Assembly: GCA_944322945.1 (NCBI GenBank)
Contig: CALUQN010000019.1
Location: forward strand, 1 to 48,192
Direction of reading: 5' to 3'
DNA length: 48,192 nt
From: Candidatus Gastranaerophilales bacterium
GTDB taxonomy: Bacteria > Cyanobacteriota > Vampirovibrionia > Gastranaerophilales > Gastranaerophilaceae
Below the pieces are notes generated by a model, which was not told the DNA's origin, did no database searches, and saw nothing but the letters and a program-made list of their open reading frames with translations. This document shows, piece after piece, positions 47 through 47,734 of this stretch. Numbering within the stretch: the stretch's first letter is position 1; each line of letters opens with the position of its first letter. The position numbers and the translations under genes are program-made.

Positions 47-74
47 ATATCGGCATATTTAATGAAAAACTTTA
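47..74 (-). promoter_or_regulatory. Sigma-28 (FliA)-like flagellar promoter
   Basis: Read on the minus strand the block is TAAAGTTT, then 12 bases, then GCCGATAT. The E. coli FliA consensus is TAAAGTTT-N11-GCCGATAA, so the -35 box matches fully, the -10 box matches 7 of 8, and the spacer is one base longer. The -10 box ends 38 bases before the ATG at position 8. The same arrangement with the same spacing recurs at 27473-27500, which makes chance unlikely. The binding factor is inferred; no fliA gene is in the window. Confidence 0.6.
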
Positions 75-25655: not shown

Positions 25656-27440
25656 TTAGCCGAATGTTTTGAATGTTGATTCTGTATTCTTTTCAATAAC
25701 TTTTGATACAGCATCCATTTCTGTCTGGATTGCGTTTTGTTCTGTATCAAGCTGTTTAAGTCTTAATTCAAGGTTTTTATCTTCAGCCTGTGTGATTTCA
25801 ATTTTTGCGTTGATTTCTTGTATTGCCTGGTCATACAGATATTTGTCGTACTCGTACTGATTCATAGCGTCGTCGTATTTTGCTTGATCTGTTACTGTTT
25901 CAGTTTCAAGGGTGTATGTGCATGGGTTACCGAATTCATCGTAGAGTGTCAGGCTTATGTATCTGCCTGTTGAATCTTGTTCTAATTTTGCCTCTACATT
26001 TTTAACTTCTTCTTGTTTCTTTTGATTGCCTACTTTATAAGTTCTTACATTTGAGCGGATATTACCATTTTCATCAGCAATACCGTTAACCATGTCGTTG
26101 CCGTTATAGAATATCGGTTCAAATTCACCGGAGGTCGTATTTTCCACGTATCTTACGTACCAGCCTTCCTGAGGTTCGCCGTAAGTTTCGTTAAGAAGTC
26201 TTTGATAATGTTTTTCAAGGTCATATAATTGTGCAAGTTGTTCACTTGACAGGCTCTTGAGGTATTCATCTTCACCATCGTAGAAAAATTCGGTTGTGAG
26301 ATAGTATTTGTCGGAGTAGTCTCCAGCATTGAGGTAGCAGTTTGCATATTGGTCATATTTTTCCTGCCATTCTTTGTGCGCTTCTTCATAAATTTTTTCA
26401 GGGCTAAGGTTAGATACTTCATCCCAGAAATCTCCCCATCTGGAAAACAGTTCAGCTTGTGTGTCAGAAGGACCAGGGTTAGGGGTGATGGTGTAGTATG
26501 AACTTTCAATATCCATACCGCCTACATTTGATTTGTTCTTGTCAAGATAAAGTATCGCATCAACATATATATCAACAAGTTGTTGATATATATCAGGGTA
26601 AATTGTTTCAAGTCTTTCTTTTAATTGCAGAGAAGTTGAGTCAGAACCATCCTTTCTCCATCCAGCGTTTGTAAGAGAGATAGTACTTTTGTTTCCGCTT
26701 GCTATTCCAAGGTTTGTGACAGTAATACCGCTTGATGATGTGACGGATGCTTGTGAGCCGTCACCCCAAATCAGGCGGCAAAGGTTGTGTTCAAGGTGTC
26801 CGATACCTTCTTTTGTTGTTCCGGATACACTTGCGTAGCATTGTGTATTTTTATAATTAACAACAAGACCTTGGGTTGTGTAATCTGCAAGCTGCGGTTC
26901 TTTGCCTATGACAGAGCAAATTCTGTCATAGGTTGCTTCAACCAGTTGAACACTGTTCCCGTTATCGTCAGTGTAGACCATGTTTGCATCCAGTCTGTAA
27001 CCGCCGGGTTTTCCTCCGCCTTCAATTTTATGTGCTACTTGCGCAAGTTCAAAGGTCTCGCCAAGTTCTTTCAGTTTTTGTGCGCCGACAAAGTAGCCGT
27101 CAGGGTTTGAATTTACGATACTTGTACTTCCGCCGCTTGCAACTGCAAAATCATCTGTCCAGCTGGACAGATAGCTTACACGATAACTACCGTTTCCTTC
27201 TGCCATAAGTGAGGTAATAGTGTTGGTAAGGGCACCATCATTAAAAGAGTAAACTGTTTTTGTATAATCGGCAACAGACGGCGGCACAGGTACGCTCATC
27301 CCCAGTAATTGGTTATAATAGTTGGCAGATTGATTAGCCAGCGTTGTTCTTTGCTGGTTAATCTGTTGTCCTTCGTATTCAACATTTGTCTTACGCGCAG
27401 TCAGACCAAGAAATCTGGCTTGCGATGCTGCCATTCCCAT
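25656..27440 (-). CDS. Unknown protein with flagellin/hook-like architecture, behind a sigma-28-like promoter
   Basis: A 594-residue protein with no family I can name. It starts MGMAASQARFLGLTARKT without a signal peptide, and the first 50 residues form a Gln/Asn-rich amphipathic helix (EYEGQQINQQRTTLANQSA). The middle is rich in beta, Tyr and Gly (residues 60-490). The last 85 residues are a strong coiled coil (NAKIEITQAEDKNLELRLKQ...). Conserved helical ends with a variable middle is the layout of flagellar axial proteins, which are exported without signal peptides. A FliA-like promoter lies upstream and a second member appears at the window edge. I infer export by a flagellar or related apparatus. 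A near-perfect palindrome lies inside the coding region. Confidence 0.7.
   Translation of the reverse strand: MGMAASQARFLGLTARKTNVEYEGQQINQQRTTLANQSANYYNQLLGMSVPVPPSVADYTKTVYSFNDGALTNTITSLMAEGNGSYRVSYLSSWTDDFAVASGGSTSIVNSNPDGYFVGAQKLKELGETFELAQVAHKIEGGGKPGGYRLDANMVYTDDNGNSVQLVEATYDRICSVIGKEPQLADYTTQGLVVNYKNTQCYASVSGTTKEGIGHLEHNLCRLIWGDGSQASVTSSSGITVTNLGIASGNKSTISLTNAGWRKDGSDSTSLQLKERLETIYPDIYQQLVDIYVDAILYLDKNKSNVGGMDIESSYYTITPNPGPSDTQAELFSRWGDFWDEVSNLSPEKIYEEAHKEWQEKYDQYANCYLNAGDYSDKYYLTTEFFYDGEDEYLKSLSSEQLAQLYDLEKHYQRLLNETYGEPQEGWYVRYVENTTSGEFEPIFYNGNDMVNGIADENGNIRSNVRTYKVGNQKKQEEVKNVEAKLEQDSTGRYISLTLYDEFGNPCTYTLETETVTDQAKYDDAMNQYEYDKYLYDQAIQEINAKIEITQAEDKNLELRLKQLDTEQNAIQTEMDAVSKVIEKNTESTFKTFG
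26565..26593. repeat. Perfect palindrome inside a coding region
   Basis: Two 14-base arms, ATATATATCAACAA and its exact complement, flank a single central base. It lies inside the gene at 25656-27440, where it encodes the repeated peptide DIYQQLVDIY. The RNA would form a stable hairpin. It could be a chance product of the peptide repeat or a site for translational pausing or an operator. Confidence 0.55.
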
Positions 27441-27472: not shown

Positions 27473-27500
27473 ATATCGGCATATTTGCTTAAAAAGTTTA
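27473..27500 (-). promoter_or_regulatory. Sigma-28 (FliA)-like flagellar promoter
   Basis: On the minus strand TAAACTTT, 12 bases, GCCGATAT. It has the same -10 box and spacing as the copy at 47-74, and differs from the FliA -35 consensus at one base. The -10 ends 32 bases before the ATG at 27440, with an AAAAGGG ribosome site between. It lies in an 83-base gap after the YbaK gene. Confidence 0.62.
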
Positions 27501-27523
27501 ATAATTGTTACAAATCGTTACAA

Positions 27524-43120: not shown

Positions 43121-46100
43121 CTATAGTGACTTGATTTCTTTTTTAACTTTCGGTTTGTCGTTGTCGTCGTCGGAGCCGAGCATGAATCGGAAGCCGCCGG
43201 TCAGCGCAATACCGTTTCTGCCGCCGTTTCTTATCATCGCCTGCAAGAACGCGGTGAACTTATCCGCCCAGTTTCGCTGTACACCAACCCCGTATTCAAC
43301 GTATGGTTTAACGCTCATTTCAGGAAGTTTCACGTTGTTGGCTGTGACTTTTGATTCGTTCATTAAGTTCCAAACCATACCAACGCTTGCGTATGGCTGC
43401 CAGCCGCCTTTGAGGTTTGCGATAAACCTTACACTCGGGTTTAATTGTATTGTATGCAGAGGGTCAGATTCAATGTTAACCCCGGCGGCGTTCTTATAAT
43501 CAAATGTGTTCACGAAAGTATAAGACAAGAACATAATCGGCTGGATAATGAACTTACCGTCTTTGAATTCAAAGTTGTAACCTGTTTTACTTCCGACGCC
43601 TGCCAAAAGTGATGTATAATCTTCTTTGCCGTACATAGTATGAGATTCACCGACAGAGGCACCGGCACTTGCGGTAATTGCAGTCCAGAAGTTACCTTTG
43701 TAGAAGGTTTCCGTAAAGCCTAACAACCCGCCGTTCATTGATGTGTCAACGCCGGAGTAATTCAAACTAGACCCCATATAACCTGCATAACCAGTGAAGA
43801 CTCTGCTCCAGCCATTTTTCATTTCTTTGAAATCACCGTCGAAGCCAACAAGCGAACCGTAAGTAATGGCATCAACTTTAGGCCCGTTTTTAATGTTCAT
43901 TGTTTCAAAAGTGGTGTAAGGTCTGAACCAGACGGCTTTATTTTGAAGCTGGTCGGCGTATGACGACATATTTTCGTTGAAATCAGTACTTAATGCATAT
44001 TTGTTGGCATTAATTTTAGCGTAACGCTCCATAGCCGGTAATTGAGTGAACGCGTCAGCGTGTTCAAAGACGTATTTGAATGCTTCATTGACAGCGGCTT
44101 GACCTGCTGCGAGGTTTCCGACCGGTGTTGCAAGGACTGCAGGGTTGAATGCGTCAGACGGGTTGCCGGTAGAGCCGCCTCCGCCGCCAGGAGTAACAGG
44201 TTTGTCCGGTTCATCCGGGTCAGGCAGCACAGGAATTTTGTCACCTCTGGTGAAAACAAAGTAGCCGCCCTCGCCTTTGCCGTCGTACTCGTTTTCGTTG
44301 TCGTAGGTTACATTATATTTGTAGATTGGTGTATAGGCGGTTTGGTAGCTGTCAGGAAGTTCACCAGTGCCGTTCACGACATTGTTTTTCAAGCCGGGTT
44401 CAGCAAAGTATACAGCGGTGACATCTTCATCCATACTAGCATCCGACAACAAATTCATTCCTACAACATTCAAATTTCCCTGATGCTCGCCATAGCTGCC
44501 GGCAGTAAACCTATCCATTTCTTTCGCTGCAAGGTCTACATCTGCGACGAAGTTTGTATTGCCTGTCAGAGCAAAGCTATTGACGTCATAGACATGAACA
44601 GTGTTGTTTATGGTGTTTAAAGTTGTATTGCCCGCGGTGAGTATGCTGTTTCTGATATCGTTGAGCATAAAGAAAGTAGTTGAGTCTTTGTCGTCGCCAG
44701 CGATATCTACTTTGTAGCCGTCAGTACCGTCGATGTTATCTTCCATAACAACGCTTCCGCCGTTTTTCATATTGAAAGATAACGTTAAATCGTCACCGCT
44801 CATATAAATAGCGTTGTCATCTTTTACTCCTTGACTCAAAGTATAGTTGCCTGAAAATACATTTTGTCTGTTGTCAGCGTTAATGGTGATATCGGCTTGT
44901 GCGAAGATTGCACCGCCGAGAGCAGTGCTTTTTTCAGAGGTTACGTGGTTATTGATAAAACTTCCGCTGATATTTTCCATAACAGTTTGGGTTAAGATAG
45001 CACCGCCATAGGCAATATCTTCTTTTGATTCGGCGTAGTTGCCGATGAAATCGCCGTAAATATTTTTAATAGTGCCTGTATTGACGATAGCTCCGCCATA
45101 AGTATATCCGGTATTGGCAGTGGCATAGTTGTTGATAAAGTCACCGTTAATAGTATCTATTTCACCGCCATACATAGTAATAGCACCGCCATATCCAATA
45201 CCGTTAGCATCAACGTGGTTACCTATAAAATTCCCGTTAATAGAACCAATACCAGCTCCGGATTCATTTACAATAGCGGAGCCTATAGAACCAGTGCTGC
45301 CGGTGTAACCCAGTGCTTTGTTTTCAATAAAATTGCCGTTGATTTCTGATATTTCAGCACCTGACGCGTTATATATAGCCCCGCCGTAGGCTTGACGTTT
45401 ATCTGATTGTACGTAGTTGCCGGTAAAATCTCCTGTAATAATGCCGATTTTACCTGTATTGTAAATAGCTCCGCCAAAAGATTCCCGGCTTAGGGTATGC
45501 GTATAATTGCCGTTGAAATCAGCCTGAATATCTGTGATTGTGCCTGTATTATAAATAGCTCCGCCGTATGCGTGGACGTCATCAGTATTCCCATCGGCTT
45601 TGGCATAATTCCCTTGAAAAATACCTGTAAGTGTGCCAAGGGTCCCGCTGTCGTTGTAAATCGCCCCGCCATTTGCGCCAGCTGCTTCCGAAATTGCGTA
45701 GTTACCGGTATAATTGCCGTCTATAAGGGTAATTGTATGTGTATTATAAATTGCTCCTCCGTTTGCATCTTTACTGACCGCATCTGCATGGTTGTTTGTA
45801 AAGTTACCGGTTAAGGAGGCAAGATCCCAGGTGTTATAAATCGCCCCGCCTGAACTTGTACTGTTACCTTTTGTGTAGTTGTTTGTAAAATTGCCTGTTA
45901 TAATTGAATCTTTTGCAATTTCGGATGTAGGTCCGAGTCCGCTTCTGTATATAGCACCGCCTCTTGCAGCGCTCTCTCCTATTACATAGTTACCTGTAAA
46001 GTCACCGTTAATAGTTCCGATAGTTGCATAATTTGATATGGCACCGCCATAAGCATAGTAACCGGTTACATGATTACCTATAAAATCGGCATTTACAGTG

Positions 46101-47734
46101 TTTATTTTACGTGCCCCGGTAGGATAGCTTGAAACACCGTTGGGATAACCGTTTGAAATGGCACCTCCATAAGCAAAGTTATTTGTTCCATTTGATTTTA
46201 GACTATTATTTACAAAATTACCGGTTATAATATCTATCTCGCCTAAATTATGTATAGCTCCGCCAAAGGCATCCCAGTTAGCAGTTAAGTTATTATTTAC
46301 AAAATCTCCATTAATTGATTTTATTGTACTGGTATCTTCATTAGCTATAGCACCACCACCGGCGTCATACATTTCAGAAATCACGTAATTATTATAAAAA
46401 GACCCGTTAATGTCACCCATTTTAGCCTGATTGTAGATAGCTCCACCGCGGGCATCGGAATTTAAAGCATTGATACCATTATTAATAAAGTCGCCATCTA
46501 TATTTCCAAGAGTATTCCTGTTATAAATAGCGCCGCCACGCATAGTTTGTAAAAAGTTTCTAAGTTGCACATCAGCATGTGTCAAGTTGTTTCCTATGAA
46601 ATCACCTTTTAAGTTGCCGATTCTTCCATTGTTGTATATAGCACCGCCAGCGGTTCCTCCGCGTGTGGTAAACGCTCTGTTGTCAATAAAGTCTCCTGTA
46701 ATGTCTCCTATAGTGCCGGTATTATGTATAGCACCACCATAAGCATGTTTATCGTATTCACAGTCACTATATGCAATATTACTGATGAAATTACCTGTAA
46801 TATTTCCTATGGTTCCACCATTATTAGAAATGGCACCGCCCCTTGAGTAGTCTACATCAGTAGATAAAGCTTTATTGCCTATAAAGTTTCCGGTAATATT
46901 TCCGATAGTTCCACTATTGTAAATAGCCCCACCGTCAGAATATTTAACCTCAATTCTATTAGCATATCCGCTGCAATCATTATAAACACTGTTATTAATA
47001 TAATTCCCAACAATATTTCCTATTTGACCTTTATTATAAATCGCCCCGCCATACACATAAATATTACCTCGATAGCCCCCACCGGTAGTTGTATTACCTA
47101 TAAAATCTCCAATAATTGCATCTTGTAAGTTGCTTTCCTGGTAGTTTATATTACCTGTGTTATAAACGCCTGCCCCTCCGCCTTTTTCTCCGCCTCCAAC
47201 TCGGTACCTGTCAGCTTCATTCTTTATAAAATTTCCTGTAATAGCATCGCGATTTGTGCTGTTTGAAATTGCACTATCAGTTTTGTTTGTATAGGTGTCG
47301 CCTGCCGTTGAGTCGTATTTGTATGTAATTTCCTGACCAATTGAAGAAGAAGGGTTTTCTACAAGTTCGGTGCCTGTATCTTGATTTTCCTGCCAGCCGT
47401 AAGTTAAAGATGTATCACCAGTCTTACTGCCGTATTCTGTTTGTTTCAAGTCCACACGGTAATACACAGGCGTAAATTCGCCTGTTGAGGAGTTGTATTC
47501 AAACTTTGTAATAGTGTTTTCGCCAGCCGTGTCGACTTTTGTGAGGGTATAAGCGCTATCATCGCCCAATGTCGGAGTAGAAAGGTCAGCAGCCGCCCCA
47601 GTCATGACGCCATCCCCTCTACCTTTGGGAGAGGGGGCAGGGGTGAGGGTTTTATATGCGTCGAGTTCGGTAGCTTGCGCTGCCACCCCCCACCTAGCCT
47701 GTCTTGAATTTGCTTCACGCTCACGGAGACTCAC
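43121..47734 (-). CDS. Type V autotransporter with GGAI/FxxN repeat passenger (Pmp-like)
   Basis: A 1537-residue surface protein. Residues about 155-1010 contain some two dozen units of roughly 25-40 residues with the pattern GGAIYN-x-GTI-x-x-I-x-GDF-x-x-N, that is, the GGA(I) and FxxN motifs of chlamydial polymorphic membrane proteins, expected to form a beta-helix. A Pro/Gly-rich linker (about 1175-1205) and a helix (about 1215-1265) lead into an autotransporter beta-barrel (about 1268-1520). A 17-residue charged tail (SDDDNDKPKVKKEIKSL) follows the barrel, which normally ends at the last strand. The frame opens at a GTG at 47734, or an ATG at 47605 (residue 44); neither gives a signal peptide, and residues 30-41 are encoded by a dispersed repeat. 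The gene may be 5'-damaged. Confidence 0.85.
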   Translation of the reverse strand: MSLREREANSRQARWGVAAQATELDAYKTLTPAPSPKGRGDGVMTGAAADLSTPTLGDDSAYTLTKVDTAGENTITKFEYNSSTGEFTPVYYRVDLKQTEYGSKTGDTSLTYGWQENQDTGTELVENPSSSIGQEITYKYDSTAGDTYTNKTDSAISNSTNRDAITGNFIKNEADRYRVGGGEKGGGAGVYNTGNINYQESNLQDAIIGDFIGNTTTGGGYRGNIYVYGGAIYNKGQIGNIVGNYINNSVYNDCSGYANRIEVKYSDGGAIYNSGTIGNITGNFIGNKALSTDVDYSRGGAISNNGGTIGNITGNFISNIAYSDCEYDKHAYGGAIHNTGTIGDITGDFIDNRAFTTRGGTAGGAIYNNGRIGNLKGDFIGNNLTHADVQLRNFLQTMRGGAIYNRNTLGNIDGDFINNGINALNSDARGGAIYNQAKMGDINGSFYNNYVISEMYDAGGGAIANEDTSTIKSINGDFVNNNLTANWDAFGGAIHNLGEIDIITGNFVNNSLKSNGTNNFAYGGAISNGYPNGVSSYPTGARKINTVNADFIGNHVTGYYAYGGAISNYATIGTINGDFTGNYVIGESAARGGAIYRSGLGPTSEIAKDSIITGNFTNNYTKGNSTSSGGAIYNTWDLASLTGNFTNNHADAVSKDANGGAIYNTHTITLIDGNYTGNYAISEAAGANGGAIYNDSGTLGTLTGIFQGNYAKADGNTDDVHAYGGAIYNTGTITDIQADFNGNYTHTLSRESFGGAIYNTGKIGIITGDFTGNYVQSDKRQAYGGAIYNASGAEISEINGNFIENKALGYTGSTGSIGSAIVNESGAGIGSINGNFIGNHVDANGIGYGGAITMYGGEIDTINGDFINNYATANTGYTYGGAIVNTGTIKNIYGDFIGNYAESKEDIAYGGAILTQTVMENISGSFINNHVTSEKSTALGGAIFAQADITINADNRQNVFSGNYTLSQGVKDDNAIYMSGDDLTLSFNMKNGGSVVMEDNIDGTDGYKVDIAGDDKDSTTFFMLNDIRNSILTAGNTTLNTINNTVHVYDVNSFALTGNTNFVADVDLAAKEMDRFTAGSYGEHQGNLNVVGMNLLSDASMDEDVTAVYFAEPGLKNNVVNGTGELPDSYQTAYTPIYKYNVTYDNENEYDGKGEGGYFVFTRGDKIPVLPDPDEPDKPVTPGGGGGSTGNPSDAFNPAVLATPVGNLAAGQAAVNEAFKYVFEHADAFTQLPAMERYAKINANKYALSTDFNENMSSYADQLQNKAVWFRPYTTFETMNIKNGPKVDAITYGSLVGFDGDFKEMKNGWSRVFTGYAGYMGSSLNYSGVDTSMNGGLLGFTETFYKGNFWTAITASAGASVGESHTMYGKEDYTSLLAGVGSKTGYNFEFKDGKFIIQPIMFLSYTFVNTFDYKNAAGVNIESDPLHTIQLNPSVRFIANLKGGWQPYASVGMVWNLMNESKVTANNVKLPEMSVKPYVEYGVGVQRNWADKFTAFLQAMIRNGGRNGIALTGGFRFMLGSDDDNDKPKVKKEIKSL
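47611..47650. repeat. GGGAGAGGG...GGGTGAGGG dispersed repeat inside the autotransporter frame
   Basis: CCCCTCT/AGAGGGG forms a hairpin, followed by GGCAGGGGTGAGGG. Relatives lie at 42971-42990 (opposite orientation) and near 47929-47965. Read in the gene's frame it gives LTPAPSPKGRG, a peptide that I recall as a common product of this repeat in mis-called frames. Confidence 0.7.

Follow-up and report, generated by a model that had tools for sequence, protein, structure and literature searches.

The window analysed here is a stretch of 48,192 nucleotides (nt) from a Candidatus Gastranaerophilales bacterium (assembly GCA_944322945.1, contig CALUQN010000019.1) and represents the entire contig C19 of its genome (G000; 2.12 Mb, 98.6% complete), which we refer to as the source genome. 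At positions 25656-27440, on the minus strand, we found an intact open reading frame (ORF) of 594 codons with an ATG start and no internal stops. The encoded protein of 594 amino acids (aa) belongs to what, judging from its sequences, is an undescribed family with conserved helical ends around a hypervariable middle, which we call the MGMAASQAR family. The initial annotation, made from the DNA letters, had read the N-terminus MGMAASQARF correctly and had placed the ORF at these positions without a strand; the ORF stood and the strand was found to be minus. A plus-strand reading of the same positions contains 18 stops and was dropped.

The structure of the protein was predicted with AlphaFold2 (mean predicted local distance difference test score, pLDDT, 67; predicted template modelling score 0.42). 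From N- to C-terminus, all on the minus strand, the model consists of a conserved helix at residues 2-46 (27303-27437; pLDDT mostly > 90), an adjoining beta-rich part at residues about 56-138 (27033-27275), a variable middle at residues 137-381 which was modelled at low confidence (26298-27032; pLDDT mostly < 50), a second beta-rich part at residues 427-517 (25890-26162) and a conserved helix at residues 519-593 (25662-25886; pLDDT mostly > 90). Both helical ends proposed by the initial annotation were therefore predicted, although the C-terminal one has 75 residues and not 85; the beta-rich middle held for the two parts next to the helices, while residues 137-381 are of low confidence. A close paralogue on contig C8 matches the window protein at residues 1-130 and 390-594 only. 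The absence of a signal peptide and of a recognised family had also been claimed, and both claims agree with our results: none of 97 members had a signal-peptide-like hydrophobic stretch within residues 1-45 (12-residue Kyte-Doolittle means reached at most 1.29), and the window protein matched nothing in Pfam and NCBIfam above the family cut-offs. Sequence searches of the PDB with the window protein and with the family profile found nothing relevant.

The family is defined by the N-terminal motif MGMAASQARxLxxTxR and the C-terminal motif LDTExxALQTEYDSVKxVIxKNIExxFxxF. In an alignment of 12 N-termini from the source genome, M1, G2, A4, A5, S6, Q7, A8, R9, L11, T14, R16 and E21 were invariant, and a full-length alignment added D565, E567, T573, E574, K584, N585, E587 and F590 near the C-terminus. 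The source genome contains about 15 family gene starts, and 14 places in it match a 60-position N-terminal profile; such an N-terminal search for relatives had been proposed with the initial annotation, and it also returned matches in 116 of 117 Gastranaerophilales genomes, at 2-15 copies each and with E values down to 1e-33. Relatives in 116 genomes are far beyond chance. None of the 158 sampled Cyanobacteriota genomes from outside the order matched, including 5 of the same class and another order, and in the phylum-wide sample the 133 genomes which matched the family profile were all Gastranaerophilales. The best 80 matches in GTDB contigs, which are all near relatives and are silent on absence elsewhere, were mostly metagenome-assembled genomes named Candidatus Gastranaerophilales or Melainabacteria; some carried generic or odd labels. 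The 97 unique members range in length from 108 to 865 aa. In a Pfam search of 84 members the middles contained no family except for GLUG repeats in one, and no axial family was found.

Contigs C8, C9, C10, C12, C16 and C19 of the source genome terminate in copies or partial copies of family genes, and near-identical duplicates break the assembly at the ends of C8 (both), C10, C12 and C19 (left). The two C8 copies differ at 22 of 986 compared positions and are identical over the 107 nt upstream of the ATG; since this identity begins before the start codon, promoter and gene were duplicated as one unit. At the left edge of the window (positions 8-1, minus strand) lie the first 8 bases of a second member, ATGGGAAT, truncated by the contig end; the 120 nt upstream of this member share 96% identity with the corresponding stretch of the C10 member. 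It is preceded by a FliA-type site, TAAAGTTTTTCATTAAATATGCCGATAT (47-74, minus strand; 1 mismatch to consensus), so that the second member suspected by the initial annotation at this edge was confirmed as far as the contig extends.

The window gene also has its own promoter in the upstream intergenic gap. This FliA (sigma-28)-type promoter, TAAACTTTTTAAGCAAATATGCCGATAT, lies at 27473-27500 on the minus strand, ends about 33 nt before the ATG and reads TAAACTTT-N12-GCCGATAT, with 2 mismatches to consensus. We scanned the source genome for the consensus TAAAGTTT-N12-GCCGATAA (16 bases, ≤ 2 mismatches) and found 25 sites, whereas the reversed pattern gave 4. Of the 25 sites, ten precede family gene starts: seven are read directly before family genes (C4, C8 twice, C10, C3, the main C19 gene and C23), and the genes behind the other three (C9, C12 and the left edge of C19) are either truncated at the end of a contig or have their start further downstream of an upstream frame. 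In an independent test in other genomes (≤ 4 mismatches allowed), FliA-type sites preceded 48 of 73 family genes, mostly at a distance of 36-60 nt from the ATG, compared with 4 of 313 controls. The FliA-type promoter which the initial annotation had noticed is thus present, and at the sequence level it is statistically real across the family. A FliA gene is found in the source genome above the curated cut-off. FliA-type sites also precede other unknown genes, both small ones (50-160 aa) and larger ORFs (G000:C1:115308, C2:2809, C2:82346, C3:136088, C10:34437 and C11:41766, among others), and the FliA regulon therefore seems wider than the family. Just upstream of the -35 box of the window gene there is a further element, TTGTAACAA (27505-27513, minus strand), which recurs before family genes; TTGTwACAA occurs within 250 nt upstream of 31 of 74 family genes in other genomes versus 18 of 351 controls. 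Many family genes have this TTGTAACAA/TTGTTACAA near-palindrome upstream of their FliA site, and it is perhaps the site of a second regulator.

We also examined the flagellar export genes of the order. The source genome, for which the inventory was drawn up from family searches and selected contig stretches, contains FliA, FlhA, FliE, FliF, FliH, FliP, FliQ, FlgB, FlgC and two FlgF/G-like genes. The initial annotation had advised looking for fliA, flhA and fliC; the first two were found, but no recognisable flagellin was, as PF00669 had no match even at E 10. Among the 117 order genomes, PF00771 (FlhA) was found in all and PF00669 (flagellin) in 36, with no PF00669 match in the source genome and 80 others (81/117). 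The FlhA proteins fall into two classes. Class A (canonical; 858-889 bits) was found in 34 genomes, all flagellin-positive (the flagellin-positive G008 and G084 had no class A match), and class B (about 685-736 bits) occurred in almost all genomes, irrespective of flagellin. FliP and FliF were counted in 43 genomes picked from the flagellin-positive and flagellin-negative groups: the 26 tested genomes with FlhA-A had two FliP and two FliF each, one high- and one low-scoring (G085 had one FliF), and the tested flagellin-negative genomes had a single FliP and a single FliF, both low-scoring, except that G035 and G111 gave no FliF match. In the tree FlhA-A and FlhA-B form separate clades (support 100/100). 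Identity to Escherichia coli FlhA is 44% for A and 36.5% for B, and within the order the B proteins are better conserved than the A proteins (mean identity 77% vs 70%). The FlhA-B of the source genome scored 706 bits against TIGR01398 (FlhA), below the cut-off of 772 (FlhA-A of G010: 873 bits), and FlhA-B scored 597 bits against TIGR01399 (SctV), below the cut-off of 692. From these sequences the second export set (system B) looks like a separate, conserved apparatus beside the true flagellum (system A). It does not look like a worn-out flagellum, because flagellated species carry set B in addition.

The basal-body genes FliE, FliF, FlgB, FlgC and FlgF/G are present in system B, as judged by Pfam matches and operons. 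The operon order is flgF/G-like, flgF/G-like, flgB, flgC, an SLT lytic transglycosylase gene, fliE, fliF, fliG-like, fliH, flhA-B and fliI. In the source genome the set is split, with fliE-fliF-fliG-like-fliH-flhA on C21, flgB/C/F/G near fliA on C2, and on C1 a FliMN-like gene and, behind it, genes in the positions of fliO, fliP, fliQ and fliR. The product of the gene which takes the place of fliG between fliF and fliH (L032:10769-11806, L051:8166-9125) matched neither the FliG families of Pfam nor the FliG-A profile. In the source genome a hook search with PF06429 matched only the rod genes; in G004 and G002, set B contains an FlgE/F/G-like gene of 277 aa next to genes resembling FliJ and FliK, and this 277-aa gene would score below the PF06429 cut-off. 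An EF-hand protein of 183 aa (L167:11640-12191, minus strand) lies beside the set B fliR-like gene and a pair of small genes which follow a FliA-type site. A 491-aa protein at about 68040-69515 of C1 (L034:8040-9515, minus strand) has a different N-terminus followed by the C-terminal, soluble half of FlhA alone (FHIPEP match at positions 322-654, 177 bits); a low-scoring extra FlhA match in most order genomes may be the same type of protein. A free FlhA_C-like protein would be unusual.

Members of the family were found close to set B. Three genomes of one genus (G014, G001 and G022) share the order valS-like gene, S1-domain gene, long family member, 272-aa gene, 90-aa gene, short member of 108-110 aa, 203-217-aa gene, purH-like gene and then fliE-fliF-fliG-like-fliH-flhA-B, where the names valS, S1 and purH are our reading of the sequences; the part from the long member to the short member lies within about 10 kb of fliE...flhA-B. 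In G030, from the genus of the source genome, the block from the 272-aa gene onward is kept near set B and a family member lies just beyond the stretch examined; in G023, from a third genus, the distance between a family member and flhA-B is about 9 kb. In the source genome, C30 carries this gene order from the valS-like gene as far as the short member. The short member, which AlphaFold2 predicted as a helical hairpin, is homologous to the ends of the long members (profile comparison 98.1%, E 9e-13). In the operon (L161:11847-13458, L011:4143-5835), the long member is accompanied by the helical hairpin of 108-111 aa, a basic protein of 90 aa and a protein of 272 aa which is rich in Gly, Ser and Tyr and contains a hydrophobic stretch; there is a weak alignment between the end of this 272-aa protein and the family C-terminus (17%, E 0.0014). 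The mean number of family copies was 9.8 in genomes without flagellin and 5.2 in genomes with it (P = 7e-12, uncorrected for kinship).

Our preferred explanation, which we hold with moderate confidence, is that the window protein belongs to a large, order-specific family of flagellin-analogous proteins which are exported by system B, with their ends paired and their middle displayed. FliA would transcribe each family gene from its own late-flagellar-type promoter, as the promoter statistics suggest. The proteins appear to have no Sec-type signal and would probably leave the cell through the flagellum-derived type III apparatus, a relation to which shared regulation and gene linkage point. By homology, this apparatus is made of FliE, FliF, FlgB, FlgC, two FlgF/G-like rods, a FliMN-like C-ring protein, FliH, FliI, FlhA-B, FliPQR-B and a lytic transglycosylase, and is present with or without a true flagellum. 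In the predicted fold the conserved N- and C-terminal helices may pair as a structural core, like D0/D1 of flagellin, and outside the cell the proteins would probably stack or attach with the hypervariable middle on the surface. The 108-111-residue member, encoded in one operon with a long member, would be a bare helical hairpin with no display domain. The initial annotation had suggested a set of axial or secreted proteins made through a flagellar export system; relatives, export genes and a borderline fold support this, and none of the three results which it had named as refuting came about. What the computations show is the family with its conserved ends, its FliA-type promoters, the lack of a recognised flagellin and the second export set; export by system B, end pairing and surface display are what we infer, with polymerisation the least certain part of the model.

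A comparison of the ends with flagellar proteins had also been advised. VIA-align was run on the 1000 best Foldseek entries (996 solved chains), and the top 8 were all flagellar filament, junction, cap or HAP-3 entries (Z 8.2-9.2), a borderline range near the level reached by unrelated models; examples are 9u4r (Z 9.2), 7sn4 (Z 8.5, root-mean-square deviation 3.1, 112 aligned) and the HAP-3 entry 5yti (Z 8.2, root-mean-square deviation 2.3, 119 aligned). Seven further flagellar entries followed by rank 23. As a Z near 8 can be chance, we base the fold resemblance on the consistency of the top rows. These matches are not what any hairpin gives, because the hairpin alone matched generic coiled coils (CT398, IpaB, HP0958, Rad50 and many others), which were not used as evidence.

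In addition to the borderline Z values, several results weigh against the preferred explanation. Foldseek with the whole model found nothing significant in the PDB and BFVD (best E 0.66). Profile comparison with flagellin, FlgB, FlgC, FlgF/G and FliE in hhalign gave probabilities of about 1% or less (positive controls 96-99%), and the family, which may work like the axial families, is therefore not filed in them; a match by eye between the ends and the D0 motifs of rod and hook proteins (GM-AASQA.., Q..Y.....VI) was rejected by the same comparison. G015 has system B and no family match, and in G035 and G111, which contain family members, neither FliF nor a full FlhA match was found, possibly through loss of contigs. 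The co-occurrence of family and set B is weak evidence, because both are nearly universal in the order and largely represent one phylogenetic event.

The alternative which survives best, although we regard it as rather unlikely, is that the proteins are exported by system B without polymerising, as secreted or cell-attached adhesins or effectors whose ends serve as an export signal and a chaperone- or surface-docking coiled coil. The scattered single genes (2-15 per genome), recent duplicates, hypervariable middles, GLUG repeats in one middle and lengths of up to 865 aa would all suit such proteins, and the best Foldseek match of the bare hairpin is the coiled coil of the type III translocator IpaB, at an E of only 0.01. 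However, effectors seldom share a conserved C-terminal helix as well as an N-terminus, and a variable middle between conserved ends, together with matches to filament subunits, suits axial proteins better. It is improbable that the proteins stay inside the cell as cytoplasmic or membrane-associated coiled-coil scaffold or regulatory proteins which merely belong to the FliA regulon: the case for their export is indirect and there is a weak PspA-like coiled-coil match (NCBIfam E 0.0021, far below cut-off), but hypervariable middles and family expansion are typical of surface-exposed proteins and the family is linked to export apparatus genes. We give very little credence to the family riding on the true flagellum as minor filament or junction parts, with copies kept by flagellin-less genomes, since although the promoter alone cannot separate A from B (FliA also serves flagellins), flagellin is missing from 81 of 117 genomes and an FlhA-A match from 83, flagellin-less genomes hold more copies and the family operon is located near set B. 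Equally hard to credit is that the partial set is a decaying flagellum, which is the published view of MEL.A1 and of the relatives of G. phascolarctocola, and the family its leftover. Flagellar loss was deduced from incomplete sets by Di Rienzi et al. 2013 (PMC3787301) and by Soo et al. 2014 (PMC4040986). Against this reading, flagellated genomes have both sets with the partial one as an extra copy, and FlhA-B is a separate clade at 77% mean identity, intact in nearly all genomes.

Like flagellin, HAP3/FlgL and other axial proteins (PF00669, PF00460, PF06429), the family has FliA-type promoters, and in its predicted layout two terminal helices around a beta-rich variable middle, apparently with no Sec-type signal. 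It differs from the axial proteins in having no sequence or profile similarity to them, in occurring where flagellin is absent and in comprising 2-15 mostly unlinked genes per genome. System B resembles non-flagellar type III secretion systems and injectisomes (Sct), including the secretin-less Myxococcales type (PMC3459982), in its flagellum-derived gate without a flagellin filament, its FliMN/SctQ-like protein and a lytic transglycosylase nearby. However, it keeps FlgB, FlgC and FliE, which the Myxococcales system lacks, and in contrast to injectisomes its FlhA-B is below the SctV cut-off and slightly nearer to flagellar FlhA among solved structures. Filament-less basal bodies in Buchnera (PMC8109811) and the case of Lysobacter (PMC7277350) likewise keep flagellar export genes without a filament. 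There an ancestral flagellum was trimmed, whereas system B is a second, divergent set, found alongside a true flagellum in about 30% of the genomes and accompanied by a large family of candidate substrates of its own.

In PMC3787301, PMC4040986 and PMC4451040, partial flagellar sets of Gastranaerophilales are interpreted as genome reduction or loss, and PMC3787301 reports that L and P rings are absent in MEL.A1. The partial sets of PMC3787301 and PMC4040986 are very probably the same genes as system B; the passages on them mention neither a second system nor a substrate family. Within the portion of the literature covered, we found no paper on a second system, a type III system or this family in Gastranaerophilales. 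The published picture of an order losing its flagella changes to one with a separate export apparatus in nearly every genome, very probably supplied with a large FliA-controlled gene family, which names its likely substrates. In bacteria common in the gut, this would be another way in which a flagellum gave rise to an organelle not used for motility. More tentatively, we suggest that the whole order, of gut and aquatic bacteria, could build a further flagellum-derived organelle, neither swimming flagellum nor injectisome, whose outer part consists of a large family of rapidly diversifying non-flagellin subunits with variable domains on display, as a variable surface filament or a delivery device. 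It may also matter for contact with the host: most order genomes have no flagellin, the TLR5 ligand, and may show variable flagellin-like proteins instead.

The neighbours of the window gene are unrelated to it and it is solitary, with an aconitase-family gene 44 bp downstream and a gene with a tRNA-editing domain upstream. Elsewhere in the window, at 43121-47734 on the minus strand, there is a very long ORF of 1537 aa with a GTG start.
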